From positions 1 through 33,748 of the forward strand of contig SJBG01000013.1 of the NCBI GenBank assembly GCA_004332195.1: a stretch of 33,748 nt of DNA, given 5' to 3'. Source of the DNA: Desulfobulbaceae bacterium (GTDB taxonomy: Bacteria; Desulfobacterota; Desulfobulbia; Desulfobulbales; Desulfurivibrionaceae). This document shows, one piece after another, positions 16,633 to 24,070 of the stretch. Both the position numbers and the translations under genes were made by a program. The notes below the pieces were generated by a model that saw only the letters and a program-made list of their open reading frames with translations, searched no databases and was not told where the DNA came from. Every line of letters starts with the position of its first letter. Position 1 is the stretch's first letter.

Positions 16633-18558
16633 TTACGTTGTAAGGAGTTTTTCGCTTACCGTGGGAAACAGGCTTATATCGGTATGGGGCAGAAAAAGGG
16701 CGGCCATGTAGCGATCCATAAAGCTGACGTTTTCCGCCAGCTCCAGGTTGGTGATCAGGCTGCTTACCATCACCCTCTCTTGTGAACGCCGGTTATCGAT
16801 GATGCTGATCCGGCAGCCCCACAGCGAACCGTTACCCAAGTAATAAAAGCATTCTCGCGCTATATCCGGTAACAACCCGATAGTAATGGCCCGCTCAAGA
16901 TCGATATAGGACCCGAAGTTGCCGGCCAAGATCACTCGATCAAGATCGGCAAAACTCATCCCCACCGACTCCAGCAAAGTAAGGTAACCCGCGTACATCG
17001 CGGCCTTGGCCCGGATCAGATTGTCCAAATCAACTTCGCTGATCACAATATCCTCGCCCAGCAAGGCATCTTTAGCCCAGGCCAGGACATATTCATAACC
17101 GTCCTCACCTTCCCGCAGGCGAGGATGTGAAATTTTGCGATTAAATTTGCCCTGCCGATCGATAACCCCGGCGATCAACAACTCGGCGACGATGGCAATC
17201 AGACCCGAACCACAGATCCCGCTGGGTTTGATCCGGTCGATGGTGATGATCATCGGCTCCAAAGTTTCGGGATGGATCTGGAAATTCTCAATGGCCCCGG
17301 AGTTGGCTCGCATCCCGTGACGAATTCCGCCTCCTTCAAAAGCCGGGCCGGCGGAACAGGCGGCACAGACCAGCCACTCCTGATTGCCCACCACGATTTC
17401 ACCATTGGTGCCAATGTCGATAAACAGAGTAAGCTCCGGACTTTTGTATATTCGGCAGGCATGAACTCCGGCAACAATATCCCCGCCGACATAGCTGGCC
17501 ACCGCCGGATAGAGAAAAAGCCGAACCGAGGGGTGAGCGTAAATTCCCAGCTCGGCCGCCTGGATCATGGGAAAGTTGCTGCAGGTCGGGACGTAGGGTG
17601 CCTCCCGGATAAATTTGGGGTCCAAGCCCAGCAACAGGTGGCTCATCACGGTGTTGCCGGCGGCCATGATATAGCTGATATCGCTGGGGCTGATCACCAC
17701 CGTCCGACAAAGAGTCTCGATAATGGTATTGATGGTCTTTACCAGTTTTTCCTGGAGGGTTTGCAGGCCACCGGGCCGCTGAGAATAAACGATCCGGGAG
17801 ATCACGTCTTCGCCGTAGGCGATCTGGCCGTTATACGCGGTGGCCTCGGCGAGCGTTACGCCGGAGTTGAGATCAATCAGCATCCCACAGACCGTGGTGG
17901 TGCCGATATCCATCGCCAGGCCGTAAAGTTGGCCGGAGGTATCCCCCGGCTCCACGGCGACGATGCGGTCAGCCTCTTCGGCCCGTCGCCTCTTGAGCAG
18001 TGTCACCGTGACGCGCCAGTTGGCCTCCCGCAAAGTGAAGGGTAAATCCCTGAGCAACTCAGGGTGATCGTAGGTGGGGTTAATGCAGTCATGACAGCGC
18101 TGGTGAATGGCGCGCATCAGGCGCGAGAGGTCAGGGACATTATCCTCCATTGTGGGCGGGTCCAGTTCAAGAAAACGCTTTTCCACCGGCGGGTTCAGCT
18201 CCCAGAGGCCGACCAGTTTTTCCAGGGAGCGGGCGGAGATGGTGCGGGCAATTACGGGTTTGCGCTTCAGGGCCTTGCCATCCTTGCCGGTGGCCTCCGG
18301 GATCTGCACCACCAGGTCGCCTTTAACCGTGCTTTGGCAGGCCAGACGGATTCCCGCGGCGTAATCCTCATTCTTGAGGCGAGCTTGGTCGGATTCAACT
18401 GACCCGGATGCTATCTTGACCTTGCACTTGCCACAGACTCCGTCCCCACCACAAACGGCATTGAGATAGACCCCGGCTTTGGCGGCAGCGGCCAGCAGGT
18501 TTTCCCCCTCATCCACCTCGATCTTGACTTTATCCGGCAAAAATTGAATAGTTTTCAT
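16633..18558 (-). CDS. 2Fe-2S/ASKHA reductive activator of corrinoid proteins (RACo-like, DUF4445)
   Basis: The 641-residue protein combines an N-terminal plant-type ferredoxin with a large ASKHA ATPase domain. This is the layout of RACo, which uses ATP to return an inactive Co(II) corrinoid protein to Co(I). Cluster ligands are C36, C42, C45 and C74. The ASKHA fold shows the phosphate-1 motif AMDIGTTTVCG at about 215-225 and a second DIGTNGEIVVG loop, then GNFGSYIDLERA near the end. I start at the ATG 18556-18558. A TTG at 18570 would add MPKT. The presence of this protein suggests a corrinoid methyltransferase system or the acetyl-CoA (Wood-Ljungdahl) pathway, but no such partner is in the window. 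An inverted repeat lies right upstream. Confidence 0.85.
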   Translation of the reverse strand: MKTIQFLPDKVKIEVDEGENLLAAAAKAGVYLNAVCGGDGVCGKCKVKIASGSVESDQARLKNEDYAAGIRLACQSTVKGDLVVQIPEATGKDGKALKRKPVIARTISARSLEKLVGLWELNPPVEKRFLELDPPTMEDNVPDLSRLMRAIHQRCHDCINPTYDHPELLRDLPFTLREANWRVTVTLLKRRRAEEADRIVAVEPGDTSGQLYGLAMDIGTTTVCGMLIDLNSGVTLAEATAYNGQIAYGEDVISRIVYSQRPGGLQTLQEKLVKTINTIIETLCRTVVISPSDISYIMAAGNTVMSHLLLGLDPKFIREAPYVPTCSNFPMIQAAELGIYAHPSVRLFLYPAVASYVGGDIVAGVHACRIYKSPELTLFIDIGTNGEIVVGNQEWLVCAACSAGPAFEGGGIRHGMRANSGAIENFQIHPETLEPMIITIDRIKPSGICGSGLIAIVAELLIAGVIDRQGKFNRKISHPRLREGEDGYEYVLAWAKDALLGEDIVISEVDLDNLIRAKAAMYAGYLTLLESVGMSFADLDRVILAGNFGSYIDLERAITIGLLPDIARECFYYLGNGSLWGCRISIIDNRRSQERVMVSSLITNLELAENVSFMDRYMAALFLPHTDISLFPTVSEKLLTT

Positions 18559-18571
18559 AGTCTTGGGCAAA

Positions 18572-18635: not shown

Positions 18636-18834
18636 AACATCCGTCCTTGGTTGGGCTAGGGGTGTTCTCAGGAATGATCTTTTAAATTACCCATTTAATT
18701 ACGGCTGGCGCGCTGTTCCTATTTAAAATCATTTAAGAAAATCACGGCATCAACCGATAACAAGGACAGACTCAGGCAACGGTTTAATTCTCGAAGATCA
18801 AAAGATATTTGCCATGCCAAACTGGAGGTTTTGC

Positions 18835-19617
18835 ATGCCGGGTTTTTTTTGCTTGACCCAAAGTAACTCAGTTCGGCCCACTGGCGGCAGCCTGTTGGCC
18901 CTGTTGGCCCTGTTTATGTTACTGGTCTGTTTGTTTTTTCCCGCTCCGGCCGCAGCTTTCTGGCCCTTTACGGCTCGGGAAAAAGACCGGGCCATTGGTG
19001 AATTGACGCAAGACCAGGAATTCAAGGGGGCAATTGTCGACACAACTTCAAGCCTCGCCGGCCTGGCTGGTCCAGCCGGTTCGGCGGATTCAGCCGACAA
19101 CCAGGCGCTTGCGCTTCGTTGGGAGATCGCCGCCATAGGTAATGACCTCTTGGCCTCGTTGGCCGATTCCGACCCGAAGTACGGCGACTTGAGCGGTGGA
19201 GTGATCGTGCTTTCTTTTGTCGATCAAAGAAATCTCTCCCGAACCACTTCCCTGGGCCGCTATCTGGCCGAACAGTTAATGCATGAGTTGCAGCAACACC
19301 GGGTGGCGGTGCTTGAGTTACGCAAGAGCACGGAGGTGCGGGTTCAGGAACGGGGCGGCGAATTCGGCCTCTCCCGTAATCCAGCGGAAATCCGCAATGA
19401 AACCGCGGCCGCCGCCATACTTACCGGAACTTATACCGTCACTGCCGCCCAAATCATTGTCAATGCCCGAATCATCGACCATCGTACGACGGTGCTGTTG
19501 GCTTCCGCCACCGCCGTAATTGCCCGGACCTCCGTGGTCAACGCCTTACTGGCTGATCCAGTCAGCAGTCCCAGGGTGCGGCCCGAACCTATGTACATGC
19601 AACGCTTGGAACTTTAA
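18835..19617 (+). CDS. exported FlgO-like protein, first of a tandem pair
   Basis: The protein has 260 residues. I start at the ATG at 18835 because GGAGG lies six bases before it. The ATG at 18814 has no such site. A clear signal peptide (LLALLALFMLLVCLFFPAPA) leads to export. The C-terminal half (about 110-250) is FlgO-like. It includes VIVLSFVDQRNLSRTTSLGR, YLAEQLMHELQQHRVAVLEL, GEFGLSRNP, ILTGTYTVTAAQIIVNARI. FlgO proteins are outer-membrane-associated and needed for flagellar stability in Vibrio. There is a low-complexity LAGLAGPAGSADSAD segment between signal and domain. The next gene begins one base after its stop and is a paralogue, so they are co-translated. Confidence 0.7.
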   Translation: MPGFFCLTQSNSVRPTGGSLLALLALFMLLVCLFFPAPAAAFWPFTAREKDRAIGELTQDQEFKGAIVDTTSSLAGLAGPAGSADSADNQALALRWEIAAIGNDLLASLADSDPKYGDLSGGVIVLSFVDQRNLSRTTSLGRYLAEQLMHELQQHRVAVLELRKSTEVRVQERGGEFGLSRNPAEIRNETAAAAILTGTYTVTAAQIIVNARIIDHRTTVLLASATAVIARTSVVNALLADPVSSPRVRPEPMYMQRLEL

Positions 19618-19618
19618 A

Positions 19619-20338
19619 ATGAACAGCTATCGGTCGTTTTGGCAACTTCTCTGTCCGGCTTTGCTTATCTTGGCCGGCATCGCCCCCGCGCCGCTTGGCG
19701 CGGCCGCGGCCGCGCCTATGGTCAAATCCTTCACAGTCAACACCGCCACAAGCGAGCCCCCCCCGCCGCTTATTGTTGTCGACGGCCTCGCCCCGACTGC
19801 TCAACCGGCTTTTAACGACATGGCTGCTGCCCGGCAATCCCGCAGTCCGACCATTATCTTATCGGCAGTTTCCCGGGAAATTGCCGATAAGGTATTCTAC
19901 CAACTGCGTATAGCAGGAGAAAACAACTTTGACTCCCGGATAGCGGTGACGGTGGCCGTGCCTCTGGCCGATCTCAAGAGAGAAACTGAATTTGGTCGGG
20001 TACTGGCCGAATATCTACTGACCGACCTTGCCGACCGCGGCCTGCGGGTCACCGAATTACGATTGGGGCGGGATCTGCACATTTTGCCCCAGGCCGGCGA
20101 ATTCATCCTTTCTCGCAATATCGGCGAGTTGGCCAACCATGCCCCGAATCTTGATTATGTGGTGGTCAGCACCTTTGCCAATACCCGCAACACCCTGATG
20201 TTGTATGGCCGCCTGATTGACCTCAAGGATGGTCTGATTAAGACCAGTTGGCGTCATACCTTGCCCTTAAATCGCGAGTTGCTCGGTTTGTTCCAGCCGG
20301 TAGAGACGCCCAAAATTCCGGTGCGGGGGGTTCGCTAA
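19619..20338 (+). CDS. exported FlgO-like protein, second of the tandem pair
   Basis: This 239-residue protein starts at an ATG one base after the previous stop. It has a signal peptide (LLCPALLILAGIAPAPLGA) and a Pro-rich stretch. It then carries a diverged FlgO-like domain that aligns with its neighbour: GRVLAEYLLTDL against GRYLAEQLMHEL, EFILSRN against EFGLSRN, and YGRLID against NARIID. The two clearly come from one duplication. It likely acts in the periplasm or at the outer membrane with its partner. The substrate or partner is not known. It has a weak ribosome binding site and probably depends on coupling. Confidence 0.65.
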   Translation: MNSYRSFWQLLCPALLILAGIAPAPLGAAAAAPMVKSFTVNTATSEPPPPLIVVDGLAPTAQPAFNDMAAARQSRSPTIILSAVSREIADKVFYQLRIAGENNFDSRIAVTVAVPLADLKRETEFGRVLAEYLLTDLADRGLRVTELRLGRDLHILPQAGEFILSRNIGELANHAPNLDYVVVSTFANTRNTLMLYGRLIDLKDGLIKTSWRHTLPLNRELLGLFQPVETPKIPVRGVR

Positions 20339-20381
20339 AACCGTAAAGCCGTTTAGGCGGCCAGTAAATGGATTACTCACC

Positions 20382-22286
20382 ATGGCAGACGAAGACGAAA
20401 AGGCAAATTCGGAATTAGGTGATGTCGACGATTGGCTGGCCGATCTTGATGACGACCAAAAGGAAAGCCCGGTAGCGGGTGATGCCAAAACCCCAATGGC
20501 CTCCGACGACTTCGAAATTAACCAACCCAACAGTGACAAAATGCTGAAAGCGGATGACGAGCCGTCCGCAGGCTCTGATGATGCTGATGATCTTGGTAGT
20601 GCCGGTGGGCTCGATGGTATTGATAATGCCGTTGAACCGCCGGAACTCAACCAGAATCGGATTGATTCGCTGTTCAACGAGAAAATTTCGACAACCGAGG
20701 GAAAACCGGCAAAGGGCAAAGGCGATACAGAAGATGATTTTGCCGAGATCTTCGGGGATGCTGCCTCGGGAGATTCCCTTTCCGCTGAGCTCGAAGTGCC
20801 CGAAACGCCACCAAATGGATCACCACCACCCAAGCAGGAGGCCAAAAAAGAAGTCGAGGATGCTTTCAGCTTTGACCATGATGAGTTTGACCTTGAGGGT
20901 TTAGATTTTGACGACAGTATTCCCGACATCCCGGATGAATTCACGATGGGCTCCGTTGAGGGGCAACAAGATGCTGATTCCGCCAGTTACTCTGACTCTC
21001 AGGATGCTTTGGCCGGTTCCTTTGATGCCGTCAAATCCGCAAAATTCACTTTGCCCGATAATCAGCAGCAGCCCGATCAAGGAAAAAAGTTTTTTACCCG
21101 GCCACCATCCATCAACCCAAAAATCATCGGAGCCGCCACTTTTGCCCTATTGGCGCTGGCTGGAATCATTTACCTCCTGCTAGGGCAAGAAGATCAGATG
21201 GAAACGGCGATCTCGCCCATGGTGCGCGAACAAGCAGTGCAGCCTGTAGAGCCGGAAAGACTGAAGGTTGTTTCACCTCCCCCCGTGGCCCATGGCAAGT
21301 TATACCACATGGAGGAGCCCGGGGCGGCAATTGTCATGGAACTTCGAGCTGACTCCGCTGACCAGGCCACCTTGAGCTTCGAGATTGTCACTCCGCCTCG
21401 CCATGGCCGTCTTGTCGGTAAGCCGCCGCTGGTTGCTTATTTACCGGATCGGGATTTCCCCGGGGAGGACGGTTTTGTTTTTCTGGCCACCGATGGCCAT
21501 CTTATGAGCAATCACGCCGAAGTAATAATTATCGACCGCAGTTTACCGGCGGTAATGGATGAAAAAGCCCCGAAAGAGGTGATGGTGGCCCTGCCCGTGC
21601 TGACGCCGTCACGGCCTTTGCTCCGGGCTCGCGACTTTATCCTGCAAACCAGCAGTATTGACCCCCTGCTCATTGACTGGGCGGTCATTTGGCGGCGGGA
21701 CAACGCTATCCCTTTTAGTCCCAGGGTAAAAGTGGAAATTATTGAACAAGACCTGAAGGGCAAACTAATCAGGCTAAGTGCCGCCGCTCACCGTTACGAA
21801 TCCAATCCCTATTTTTATGGCGCCGAGCGTTTGCTTTACCGCTTTCACTACGCCGGAGTGAGATCCCGACTACGACAGTTGACAATTGAAGTAGGCATGG
21901 GAGATCCTCCGCCCATGGTGCGAATCAGGCCCGTGGCCGCGACTTATGTGGTTGGGGAGACGGTGGTGATCGATGCCCGAGATACCTTGGCCGCCCGACC
22001 GCAGGATCTGCGTTTTGCGTGGAAACAGTTGAGTGGAACCCCCGTTTTGCTGGAGACTTCGGCGGACAACGCCGTGGTTCGTTTTATCGCCCCGTCGGCC
22101 TTCAGCTCCGTCGAAACCCCTCGGGTACTCTTGCAGGTGACCGCCATCGACCCCGCTGGCCGACAGGACGTCAAAACGGTGGAAATCACTACCACCTCCC
22201 GCCGCCACGGGGCCTTGTGGCAAGGGGAAGAGCGCGATAAGGATCCGAAGAACGTCGGCAGAGCCAGCCCGCTGTGGGGGTTCTAG
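20382..22286 (+). CDS. large acidic single-pass membrane protein with periplasmic beta-domains, function unknown
   Basis: The protein has 634 residues. The first 240 or so are acidic, low in complexity and predicted cytoplasmic, with Asp-rich patches (DVDDWLADLDDD, EFDLEGLDFDD). A short motif NQNRIDSLFNE at 90-100 resembles the N-terminal EIDALL-type peptide of FliM/FliN. A single transmembrane helix lies at about 248-267. The rest is predicted periplasmic, with a cadherin/Ig-like repeat (VTPPRHGRLVGKPPLVAYLP, DRDFPGEDGFVFLATDG) and, near 520-610, a PKD-like segment (RIRPVAATYVVGETVVIDA, FAWKQLSG). It is 43 bases after the FlgO-like pair on the same strand, so likely one operon. It ends with TAG. 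I do not recognise a named family for the whole. Confidence 0.65.
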   Translation: MADEDEKANSELGDVDDWLADLDDDQKESPVAGDAKTPMASDDFEINQPNSDKMLKADDEPSAGSDDADDLGSAGGLDGIDNAVEPPELNQNRIDSLFNEKISTTEGKPAKGKGDTEDDFAEIFGDAASGDSLSAELEVPETPPNGSPPPKQEAKKEVEDAFSFDHDEFDLEGLDFDDSIPDIPDEFTMGSVEGQQDADSASYSDSQDALAGSFDAVKSAKFTLPDNQQQPDQGKKFFTRPPSINPKIIGAATFALLALAGIIYLLLGQEDQMETAISPMVREQAVQPVEPERLKVVSPPPVAHGKLYHMEEPGAAIVMELRADSADQATLSFEIVTPPRHGRLVGKPPLVAYLPDRDFPGEDGFVFLATDGHLMSNHAEVIIIDRSLPAVMDEKAPKEVMVALPVLTPSRPLLRARDFILQTSSIDPLLIDWAVIWRRDNAIPFSPRVKVEIIEQDLKGKLIRLSAAAHRYESNPYFYGAERLLYRFHYAGVRSRLRQLTIEVGMGDPPPMVRIRPVAATYVVGETVVIDARDTLAARPQDLRFAWKQLSGTPVLLETSADNAVVRFIAPSAFSSVETPRVLLQVTAIDPAGRQDVKTVEITTTSRRHGALWQGEERDKDPKNVGRASPLWGF

Positions 22287-22454: not shown

Positions 22455-22746
22455 TTAAGCTGGAGAATTCTATTTTATTTTAAGCCAGAAATGATCGAGA
22501 CGCTCATGTCGGGCAAGCTTAATCTGCAGCTCCGCCCCAACACAACAGTGGCAGGAAACGCAAGAACGCAAGGATCATGGCGGATAACGCGGAGCATCGT
22601 ACAATTTTTTCGCCGCAAAGTCCAGACAAGTCTTTAATCGCGCCAAATATTCGACGTTGGATGGCCAACGTAGGCCTTTAGGCCTTGATACAAATTTTGC
22701 CCATAGGCCCGAGAACGGTCGGAAAAAGCTTGCGGGGAGGCATTAA
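22455..22746. other. leader region of leuCD without a supported gene
   Basis: These 292 bases follow the repeat and carry no reading frame I can support. GGCCTTTAGGCC and the AGGCCT/GGCC pairs near 22670-22710 can form small hairpins. I found no T-box or leucine-codon-rich attenuator peptide. The promoter for leuCD should be here but I cannot place it. Confidence 0.4.
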
Positions 22747-22791
22747 ATGGAGAAATTACGTGAGGGAATCAATGGGACGGACCATCGTTGA
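22747..22791 (+). CDS. possible 14-codon upstream reading frame overlapping the leuC start
   Basis: ATG at 22747 is preceded by the strong site GGGGAGG with six bases of spacing. It opens a 14-residue frame (MEKLREGINGTDHR) that stops at 22789-22791, inside leuC and in another frame. It could be a translated leader that couples to leuC, or simply chance. It contains only one Leu codon, so classical leucine attenuation is not supported. Confidence 0.25.
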   Translation: MEKLREGINGTDHR

Positions 22792-24070
22792 GAAAATTTT
22801 CACCGGCCACTGTCGCGACACTCCGACCTTGGTAAACACGATCCTGAGCCTGGACGTGGTGATGTGTCATGAAATCACTACTCCTATCGCCATTACCGAT
22901 CTTGTCGCCCGGGGGATGGATCGGGTGTTTGATCCGGAAAAAATCAAGGTGGTAATTGATCATGTTACTCCGGCTAAAGATTCCAAAACCGCCACTCAGG
23001 GCAAGATTTTGCGGGATTGGGCCCGGCGTCATAATATCCGTGATTTTTTTGATATCGGGCGCAATGGGGTTTGCCACGCCTTGTTTCCCGAAAAGGGCTT
23101 TATTCGCCCCGGCTACACGGTGATCATGGGGGATTCCCACACCTGCACGCACGGCGCCTTTGGGGCTTTTGCCGCCGGGGTGGGCACCACTGATCTGGAG
23201 GTCGGAATTTTGAAGGGGGTCTGCTCCTTTCGCCTGCCCAAAACCATTAAAGTCGACATAGCCGGTCCTCTGCCCCGTGGGGTTTATGCCAAGGATGTGA
23301 TTCTCCATATAATCAAACACCTTACGGTCAACGGGGCCACCGATCGGGTCATGGAGTTTGGCGGGTCGGCGGTGGCGGCCATGAGCATGGAAGCCCGAAT
23401 GACTCTGTGCAATATGGCCATCGAAGCCGGGGCCACCTGCGGCATCTGTCTGCCTGACCGGACCACGGCTGAATATCTCTGGCCCTTTATTCAGGAGGAT
23501 TATGCATCTATTGACGCGGCGATCGCCACTTTCAAGCAGTGGCACTCCGATCCTGATGCGGTTTACGAACAGGAGCTGCATTTTGATGTCAGCGACCTGG
23601 CTCCCCAGGTTACTTACGGTTTCAAGCCCGATGAGGTTAAGGATATCTCCGAGATGGAAGGAGTGCGGGTGGACCAGGTGTACATTGGCTCTTGCACCAA
23701 CGGTCGGATCGAAGATTTACGGGAGGCTGCGCGGGTGCTCAAGGGGCGGAAGATCGCGGATCAGGTCCGGGCTATTCTCTCTCCGGCCACCCCCAAAGTT
23801 TATTCCCAGGCCTTAGAAGAGGGGATAATAAAAATTTTCCAGGATGCCGGTTTTTGCGTTACCAATCCCACCTGCGGGGCCTGCCTTGGCATGAGCAACG
23901 GGGTATTGGCCGAAGGTGAGATTTGTGCCTCCACCACCAATCGCAACTTCAACGGCCGCATGGGCAAGGGCGGGATCGTGCATCTGATGAGCCCCCTAAC
24001 TGCCGCCGCCACCGCCGTGGCTGGCCGAATCACCGACCCCCGCCCCTGGTTGATCCGGGGCACAACCTAA
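22772..24070 (+). CDS. leuC: 3-isopropylmalate dehydratase large subunit LeuC
   Basis: LeuC with LeuD isomerises 2-isopropylmalate to 3-isopropylmalate, the second step of leucine synthesis, using a [4Fe-4S] cluster. From the ATG at 22772 (GAGGG five bases upstream) the protein has 432 residues, in the range of the compact archaeal/deltaproteobacterial type. Aconitase-superfamily motifs are visible: VMGDSHTCTHGAFGAFAAGV, the first cluster Cys in GSCTNGRIEDL, and the Cys pair in NPTCGACLGMSNGVL. It also has RNFNGRMGKGG. The related homoaconitase cannot be excluded by sequence reading. leuD follows 22 bases later. The frame is open further upstream (to 22685), but no better start exists there. 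Confidence 0.93.
   Translation: MGRTIVEKIFTGHCRDTPTLVNTILSLDVVMCHEITTPIAITDLVARGMDRVFDPEKIKVVIDHVTPAKDSKTATQGKILRDWARRHNIRDFFDIGRNGVCHALFPEKGFIRPGYTVIMGDSHTCTHGAFGAFAAGVGTTDLEVGILKGVCSFRLPKTIKVDIAGPLPRGVYAKDVILHIIKHLTVNGATDRVMEFGGSAVAAMSMEARMTLCNMAIEAGATCGICLPDRTTAEYLWPFIQEDYASIDAAIATFKQWHSDPDAVYEQELHFDVSDLAPQVTYGFKPDEVKDISEMEGVRVDQVYIGSCTNGRIEDLREAARVLKGRKIADQVRAILSPATPKVYSQALEEGIIKIFQDAGFCVTNPTCGACLGMSNGVLAEGEICASTTNRNFNGRMGKGGIVHLMSPLTAAATAVAGRITDPRPWLIRGTT

Follow-up and report, generated by a model that had tools for sequence, protein, structure and literature searches.

FlgO forms part of the H-ring in Vibrio (PMC6375700), and in Arcobacter the genes flgO and flgO' are described as likely forming one operon, with FlgO tied to concentric outer-membrane rings (PMC9321776). 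On the cytoplasmic side, the peptide EIDALL is reported as the site at which FliM and FliY bind phosphorylated CheY (CheY-P) (PMC9126983), and in Caulobacter a change of an I-D pair of FliM is reported to abolish the binding or localisation of the CheY-like Cle proteins (PMC5677366); from the name of the mutant, we read this pair as the one inside the EIDALL motif. A core problem in chemotaxis is how the motor senses CheY-P from a pool that is small and diffusing. In this study, we have analysed a stretch of 33,748 nucleotides from a Desulfobulbaceae bacterium (contig SJBG01000013.1 of assembly GCA_004332195.1), hereafter the window, in which two FlgO-domain proteins, FlgO1 and FlgO2, and a single-pass membrane protein that we call P3 are encoded in tandem on the + strand. 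Based on the window and on the corresponding loci of its relatives, we propose, with a probability of roughly 60%, that this is a FliA-controlled operon for a ring around the flagellar motor, and that its P3 docks CheY-P.

The locus resembles each of the described systems in part. Like the Vibrio H-ring protein, FlgO1 and FlgO2 are clear members of the FlgO family PF17680 (115.1 and 88.3 bits, both well above the curated cut-off of 22.6), but here there are two tandem paralogues, a transmembrane protein and, in relatives, a possibly LpoB-like third protein that we call F3. The Arcobacter flgO-flgO' pair has in common with them the tandem FlgO paralogues in a likely operon; it belongs to another phylum, and the accessible portion of that source mentions no P3-like or F3-like genes. 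The repeats of P3 share the EIDALL-type pattern with the FliM of the same genomes, whereas P3 is membrane-anchored, carries up to eight copies by a strict pattern where FliM carries one, and shows no FliM domain (PF02154) in a Pfam scan, so that it is not a FliM. Finally, CheF, which in archaea connects CheY with the archaellum as an adaptor, is described as binding CheY-P for a motility motor without belonging to the FliM family, but it binds CheY by a different mode and has no transmembrane array (PMC9126983).

The proposal of docking comes from the cytoplasmic tail of P3, which in relatives is an array of ELDQS(D/N)ID(A/S)L(L/F)GG with the consensus repeat ELDQSDIDALLGGG. Under the strict pattern, 195 motif copies occur in 55 P3 proteins, 53 of which hold one to eight each, where shuffled tails give a mean of 0.085 copies and at most 2. 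The I and the D, kept in 186 and 193 copies, are among the most fixed positions of the repeat, and between close relatives (43 non-independent pairs) the motif is 96.6% identical, the linkers 72.7% and the periplasmic part 81.0%. In these genomes FliM starts with a nearly invariant MEQILSQDEVDALLKGISGG, and both this start and the repeats fit L-x-Q-x-(D/E/N)-(I/V)-D-A-L-L-x-G. When the DNA of 8 genomes was scanned for Qxx(D/E)(I/V)Dx(L/F)(L/F), 41 matches were obtained; the 30 that we read as loci comprise FliM, P3, apparently folded proteins (helicase-like and response-regulator-like open reading frames (ORFs), and others) and short or spurious frames. Most simply, the array would repeat the FliM docking site for CheY-P in multivalent form, and in the open-licence literature we found no description of a membrane protein carrying such a FliM-like array. 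As a separate observation, a protein of about 200 residues from outside the order (L184, L185 and L186, from genomes G062, G133 and G098 of genus g35) starts with MSEILDQNDIDSLFG or MSEILDQSDIDSLFG, with a similar start in L186; its second site, LDQGDIDSLF, is followed by a Pro-rich linker, and another protein there (L187, L188) has DQSDIDALF; the FliM-like peptide seems, from these sequences, to be reused across unrelated proteins.

For the link of the operon to flagella, one line of evidence is the promoter. T[ACT]AAG-N16-CCGAT is found in 50 of 52 regions upstream of FlgO1, the window included (8 of the 58 named loci, with FlgO1 cut or within 330 bases of a contig end, were excluded), against an average of 0.06 and no more than 2 in composition shuffles; the whole loci hold just 55 matches in 1.26 million bases, both strands counted. 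The spacer is 16 in all 42 sites having AAAG. A first sigma-28 pattern, its spacing off by one base, had given a slight excess only, and the final pattern was set post hoc, once the recurring AAAG...CCGAT had been spotted by eye, and then retested; because it was refined after inspection of the sequences, the shuffle figure is no clean p-value. The FliA-type consensus given in a promoter map of Bdellovibrio, TTAAG-N16-CCGATA (PMC3627812), is identical to the predicted element of our operon, and this is an independent check on the post hoc pattern. The sigma-54 and sigma-70 consensus sequences are in no excess upstream of FlgO1. Upstream of flagellin genes from the same genomes, a similar element with a spacer of 15 or 16 lies around -190 to -250 in 9 of 12 regions, most of these failing individually to beat 100 shuffles; none was found in the flagellin regions L207, L215 and L216, and none was seen upstream of cheA and cheW in the window genome. 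FliA itself scores above cut-off in 50 of 58 relatives. Of the 42 genomes that bear P3, 41 are among them, the other being G057 with a partial match. In the window genome FliA is likewise above cut-off, at E 8.8e-77. The locus is best read as an operon, predicted to be under FliA control, that serves the flagellar motor in an accessory role.

The gene order is conserved well beyond the window. A separate scan of named genomes with a FlgO2 alignment gave 58 loci, all of which keep the order FlgO1-FlgO2-F3-P3 up to the contig ends: FlgO1 and FlgO2 were found in 58, F3 in 56 and P3 in 54, the contig ending before these genes in the loci without them. In the regions around P3 in 20 relatives, FlgO1, FlgO2 and P3 stand in the same order in all 20, with F3 as a fourth gene; we found no description of this gene order in open-licence papers. 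The loci are named Desulfobulbaceae, Desulfurivibrio, Desulfobacterales, or just Deltaproteobacteria or Proteobacteria (L158, for example, is Desulfurivibrio sp. AMeS2, and L164 and L169 are two contigs of a single assembly), and the order name used here, Desulfobulbales, is inferred from these titles and from general taxonomy. In relatives F3, of about 176 amino acids, lies between FlgO2 and P3. Its structure model (mean predicted local distance difference test, pLDDT, 82; an alignment of 45 rows, from part of the loci) has LpoB as best fold match (Foldseek E 8e-4; VIA Z 7.5, root-mean-square deviation 3.2, 93 residues aligned), where a Z below 8 may reflect just a common arrangement, and hhalign gave no convincing match of it to the FlgO1 and FlgO2 profiles (probabilities of 5% and 22%).

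P3 also follows the flagellar motor in its distribution. Among 58 relatives, P3 is present in 42 (46 genomes matched, and matches to the Big_9 stretch alone were dropped), FliM in 50 and CheA in 51. All 42 P3 genomes have FliM or FliG: 41 have FliM, and the last, G053, at 86% completeness, has both FliG and FliA. The 16 genomes without P3 comprise 7 without FliM, 6 with a divergent FliM and 3 with the FliM type that accompanies P3; the N-terminus of the divergent FliM, readable in 4, has other letters, e.g. PILSKDEIADLL, and in four loci from genomes without P3 (L173, L174, L176, L177) FliM starts with this sequence or similar, not with ILSQDEVDALL. By genome and ignoring kinship, Fisher's test of P3 against the P3-type FliM gives p 2.3e-9, with G021 (FliM split over two contigs) and G022 (partial match) counted as canonical FliM. 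G001 and G004, both less than 80% complete, have kept CheA and have no FliM, FlgO2 or P3, and G004 has FliG. A first contig scan using P3 as a single-sequence query gave no match; a scan of 395 genomes of the phylum gave strong P3 matches confined to this order (the window genome G000, and G002, G003, G007, G009, G028), all others (best E 1.5e-11) covering the profile partially, at a generic PKD or immunoglobulin (Ig) level. P3 was thus found solely in genomes having a flagellar switch gene, as would be expected if the earlier note was right to suspect a flagellar association, and we consider the flagellar link of the operon very probable.

For the ring, the argument is an indirect one, by homology. 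The FlgO1 profile matches (E 2.8e-20) the FlgO-domain protein that makes up 174 chains in PDB entries 9yfg, 9yh6 and 9yh7, that is, 58 copies per entry, and these entries also hold the flagellar P-ring protein. By this likeness, FlgO1 and FlgO2, with F3 in relatives, probably form a ring around the motor. Neither FlgP nor FlgT was identified within the operon. Lipobox-like signals, sought with a loose pattern, occur in only 5 of 17 FlgO1, 6 of 17 FlgO2 and 7 of 45 F3 sequences, and because these are few we do not claim lipoprotein status for them.

P3 itself was described from the window as a protein of 634 residues with an acidic part of about 240 residues, one membrane helix and periplasmic cadherin- and PKD-like domains. 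Composition and model agree with the first two of these: the roughly 247 residues before the helix are 26% D/E and 8% K/R, and AlphaFold2 leaves residues 1-240 disordered, ahead of a helix (246-267), and predicts with confidence a beta-rich region between about 300 and 605 (mean pLDDT 68, predicted template modelling score 0.41; an alignment of 43 rows, from part of the loci). EIDALL-type peptides in a disordered tail are found in relatives, and approximately in the window as NQNRIDSLF. Of the periplasmic domains, the cadherin-like part is supported, with Big_9 (PF17963) at residues 300-383 (E 1.6e-7) and cadherin ectodomains as best fold matches of the beta-sandwiches (best E 2.6e-13), which on the model indicate Ig-like repeats and no more; the PKD-like match is below cut-off (E 0.15). 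Against Pfam and NCBIfam, P3 scored above a cut-off for Big_9 alone, with PKD and the M36-peptidase C-terminal domain far below theirs, and no profile beyond this generic Ig domain places P3 in a known family.

In the window species the array is, when aligned with its relatives, a decayed one, reduced to a single imperfect copy. The peptide NQNRIDSLFNE, which the earlier note had likened to the N-terminal peptide of FliM and FliN, is indeed present in the cytoplasmic part of P3, with the core NQNRIDSLF, and the motif, weak and single-copy in the window, is repeated and strongly conserved in relatives. In L032 and L033, relatives from Desulfurivibrio, the first P3 site reads ELDQ(A/S)DIDQLL; in the window this site is eroded (Table 1). 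No F3 was found among the window ORFs, FlgO2 and P3 being 43 bases apart, and the rest of the window genome was not searched for it. With one imperfect site left and F3 missing alongside, docking may be weakened or gone in the window species. The window genome measures 1.66 Mb at an estimated completeness of 100%, with 3.1 Mb and 2.8 Mb for G002 and G003 of the same genus, and the small assembly, the missing F3 and the eroded array together suggest genome reduction. Motor and signal both exist in this organism, since its genome encodes CheA, CheW, CheR, CheD, a CheY-like response regulator, CheX and CheB in one cluster, and also FliM, FlgI, flagellin and FliA.

Our model would be as follows. 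FlgO1 and FlgO2, together with F3 in relatives, are exported and probably build a ring around the motor, at the outer membrane or in the periplasm, as Vibrio FlgO does. P3 would sit in the inner membrane beside this ring, its Ig/cadherin-like domains facing and possibly contacting it, while the acidic, disordered tail would extend into the cytoplasm alongside the C-ring, where several FliM-type docking peptides could bind CheY-P and hold it near the switch, or buffer it, with a possible effect on switching. The earlier note had raised the possibility that a FlgO-like layer in the envelope is linked to a flagellar or chemotaxis partner in the cytoplasm, and gene order, co-occurrence, array and FliA-type element support it. 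More tentatively, and at somewhat less than even odds, P3 may be a transmembrane multivalent CheY-P docking scaffold that is attached to the FlgO ring through its periplasmic domains and concentrates the chemotaxis signal near the switch, with motor sensitivity tuned over evolution by the number of peptide copies (1 to 8) and the array of the window species being lost. If so, P3 would be a new kind of flagellar motor part, bacteria could evolve a local CheY-P reservoir, buffer or second receiver outside the C-ring, and periplasmic FlgO rings would be tied to cytoplasmic signalling. As array length varies naturally, the idea is directly testable.

Several findings weigh against this proposal. 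The window P3 has no motif that meets the strict definition, a state shared only with L149, which has a shorter ORF. FlgO2 matches the PDB ring protein at 1e-6 only, F3 has no Pfam match above cut-off in the 2 members scanned, and the operon is not part of the main flagellar cluster. G031, G035 and G041 have the P3-type FliM yet no P3, so P3 is not essential for having flagella, and the association is uncorrected for phylogeny, with a Fisher p of 0.011 at family level.

Of the alternatives, the most probable keeps a flagellar accessory module in which the repeats bind FliN, the FliH/export complex or another response regulator, and P3 serves not to dock CheY but as a scaffold or as an anchor for assembly. 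Where local FliM has E-V-D, the repeat has D/N-I-D, and the DDW-L element near the N-terminus of P3 is somewhat like the N-terminus GDDWTTAL of a FliN-like protein of the window genome (L170, 18656-19042, named by sight), a likeness that may be chance in acidic sequence. We find this reading unlikely, if worth keeping in mind, given the documented role of EIDALL in FliM and FliY (PMC9126983), the reported effect of the I-D change on Cle (PMC5677366) and the near fixation of I and D in the repeats. Less probable still, the operon could encode envelope proteins under FliA regulation that serve adhesion or the organisation of the pole and share just this regulation with flagella: FliA of Bdellovibrio is described as controlling many non-flagellar genes (PMC3627812), the Ig/cadherin folds of P3 are adhesion-like, and the flanking genes do not look flagellar by sight, but FlgO1 is homologous to the protein of motor-ring PDB entries, the P3 tail carries the FliM-like array and P3 is absent from genomes without switch genes. 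Chance adjacency without functional link, for which only the distance of the operon from the main flagellar genes speaks, has a negligible probability and is ruled out by the gene order conserved in 20/20 regions and, up to the contig ends, in 58/58 loci across several families of the order.

Table 1. Features of the operon in the window.
Feature	Position	Strand	Description
FliA-type element TTAAG-N16-CCGATA	18733..18759	+	Predicted; exact consensus, 81 bases upstream of FlgO1 ATG
FlgO1	18814..19617	+	Exported FlgO-domain protein, 267 aa; PF17680 E 2.5e-33; 9yfg profile match E 2.8e-20
FlgO2	19619..20338	+	Second FlgO-domain paralogue; PF17680 E 4.8e-25; 49-58% identity to relatives (alignment)
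P3	20382..22286	+	Single-pass membrane protein, 634 aa (ORF call, structure model)
P3 N-terminal DDW-L element	20427..20447	+	[DE][DEN]W[LMIV] within first 40 residues in 52/54 relatives
Eroded first FliM-like site NQPNSDKML	20520..20546	+	Q and D retained
Remaining FliM-like site NQNRIDSLF	20649..20675	+	P3 residues 90-98; R at the acidic-or-N consensus position; helix 92-98 in the model
P3 membrane helix	21117..21182	+	Residues 246-267 (model)
P3 periplasmic tandem Ig/cadherin-like beta-sandwiches	21279..22196	+	Residues 300-605; Big_9; pLDDT mostly >90

As to the gene calls, the two FlgO-like paralogues are adjacent as first described, one base apart: the FlgO2 ORF spans 19520-20338, with its ATG at 19619, one base past the FlgO1 stop. 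The FlgO1 gene itself is real, but its start had been placed at 18835, which is the next in-frame ATG of an ORF that begins at 18814. Upstream of the operon, on the opposite strand, lies a gene at 16633-18570 which by sight looks like a corrinoid-activation-type ASKHA protein, and downstream of P3 an ORF of 461 amino acids (22685-24070) looks, also by sight, like LeuC. Another tandem pair of genes for exported proteins, with one FlgO-like member, is found at 2553-3912 of L170 (contig C3 of the window genome) and at 15557-16914 of L171 (G002); it adjoins a purA-like gene (by sight), lies about 14 to 15 kb from fliM, and one of its genes is matched by the FlgO2 profile.

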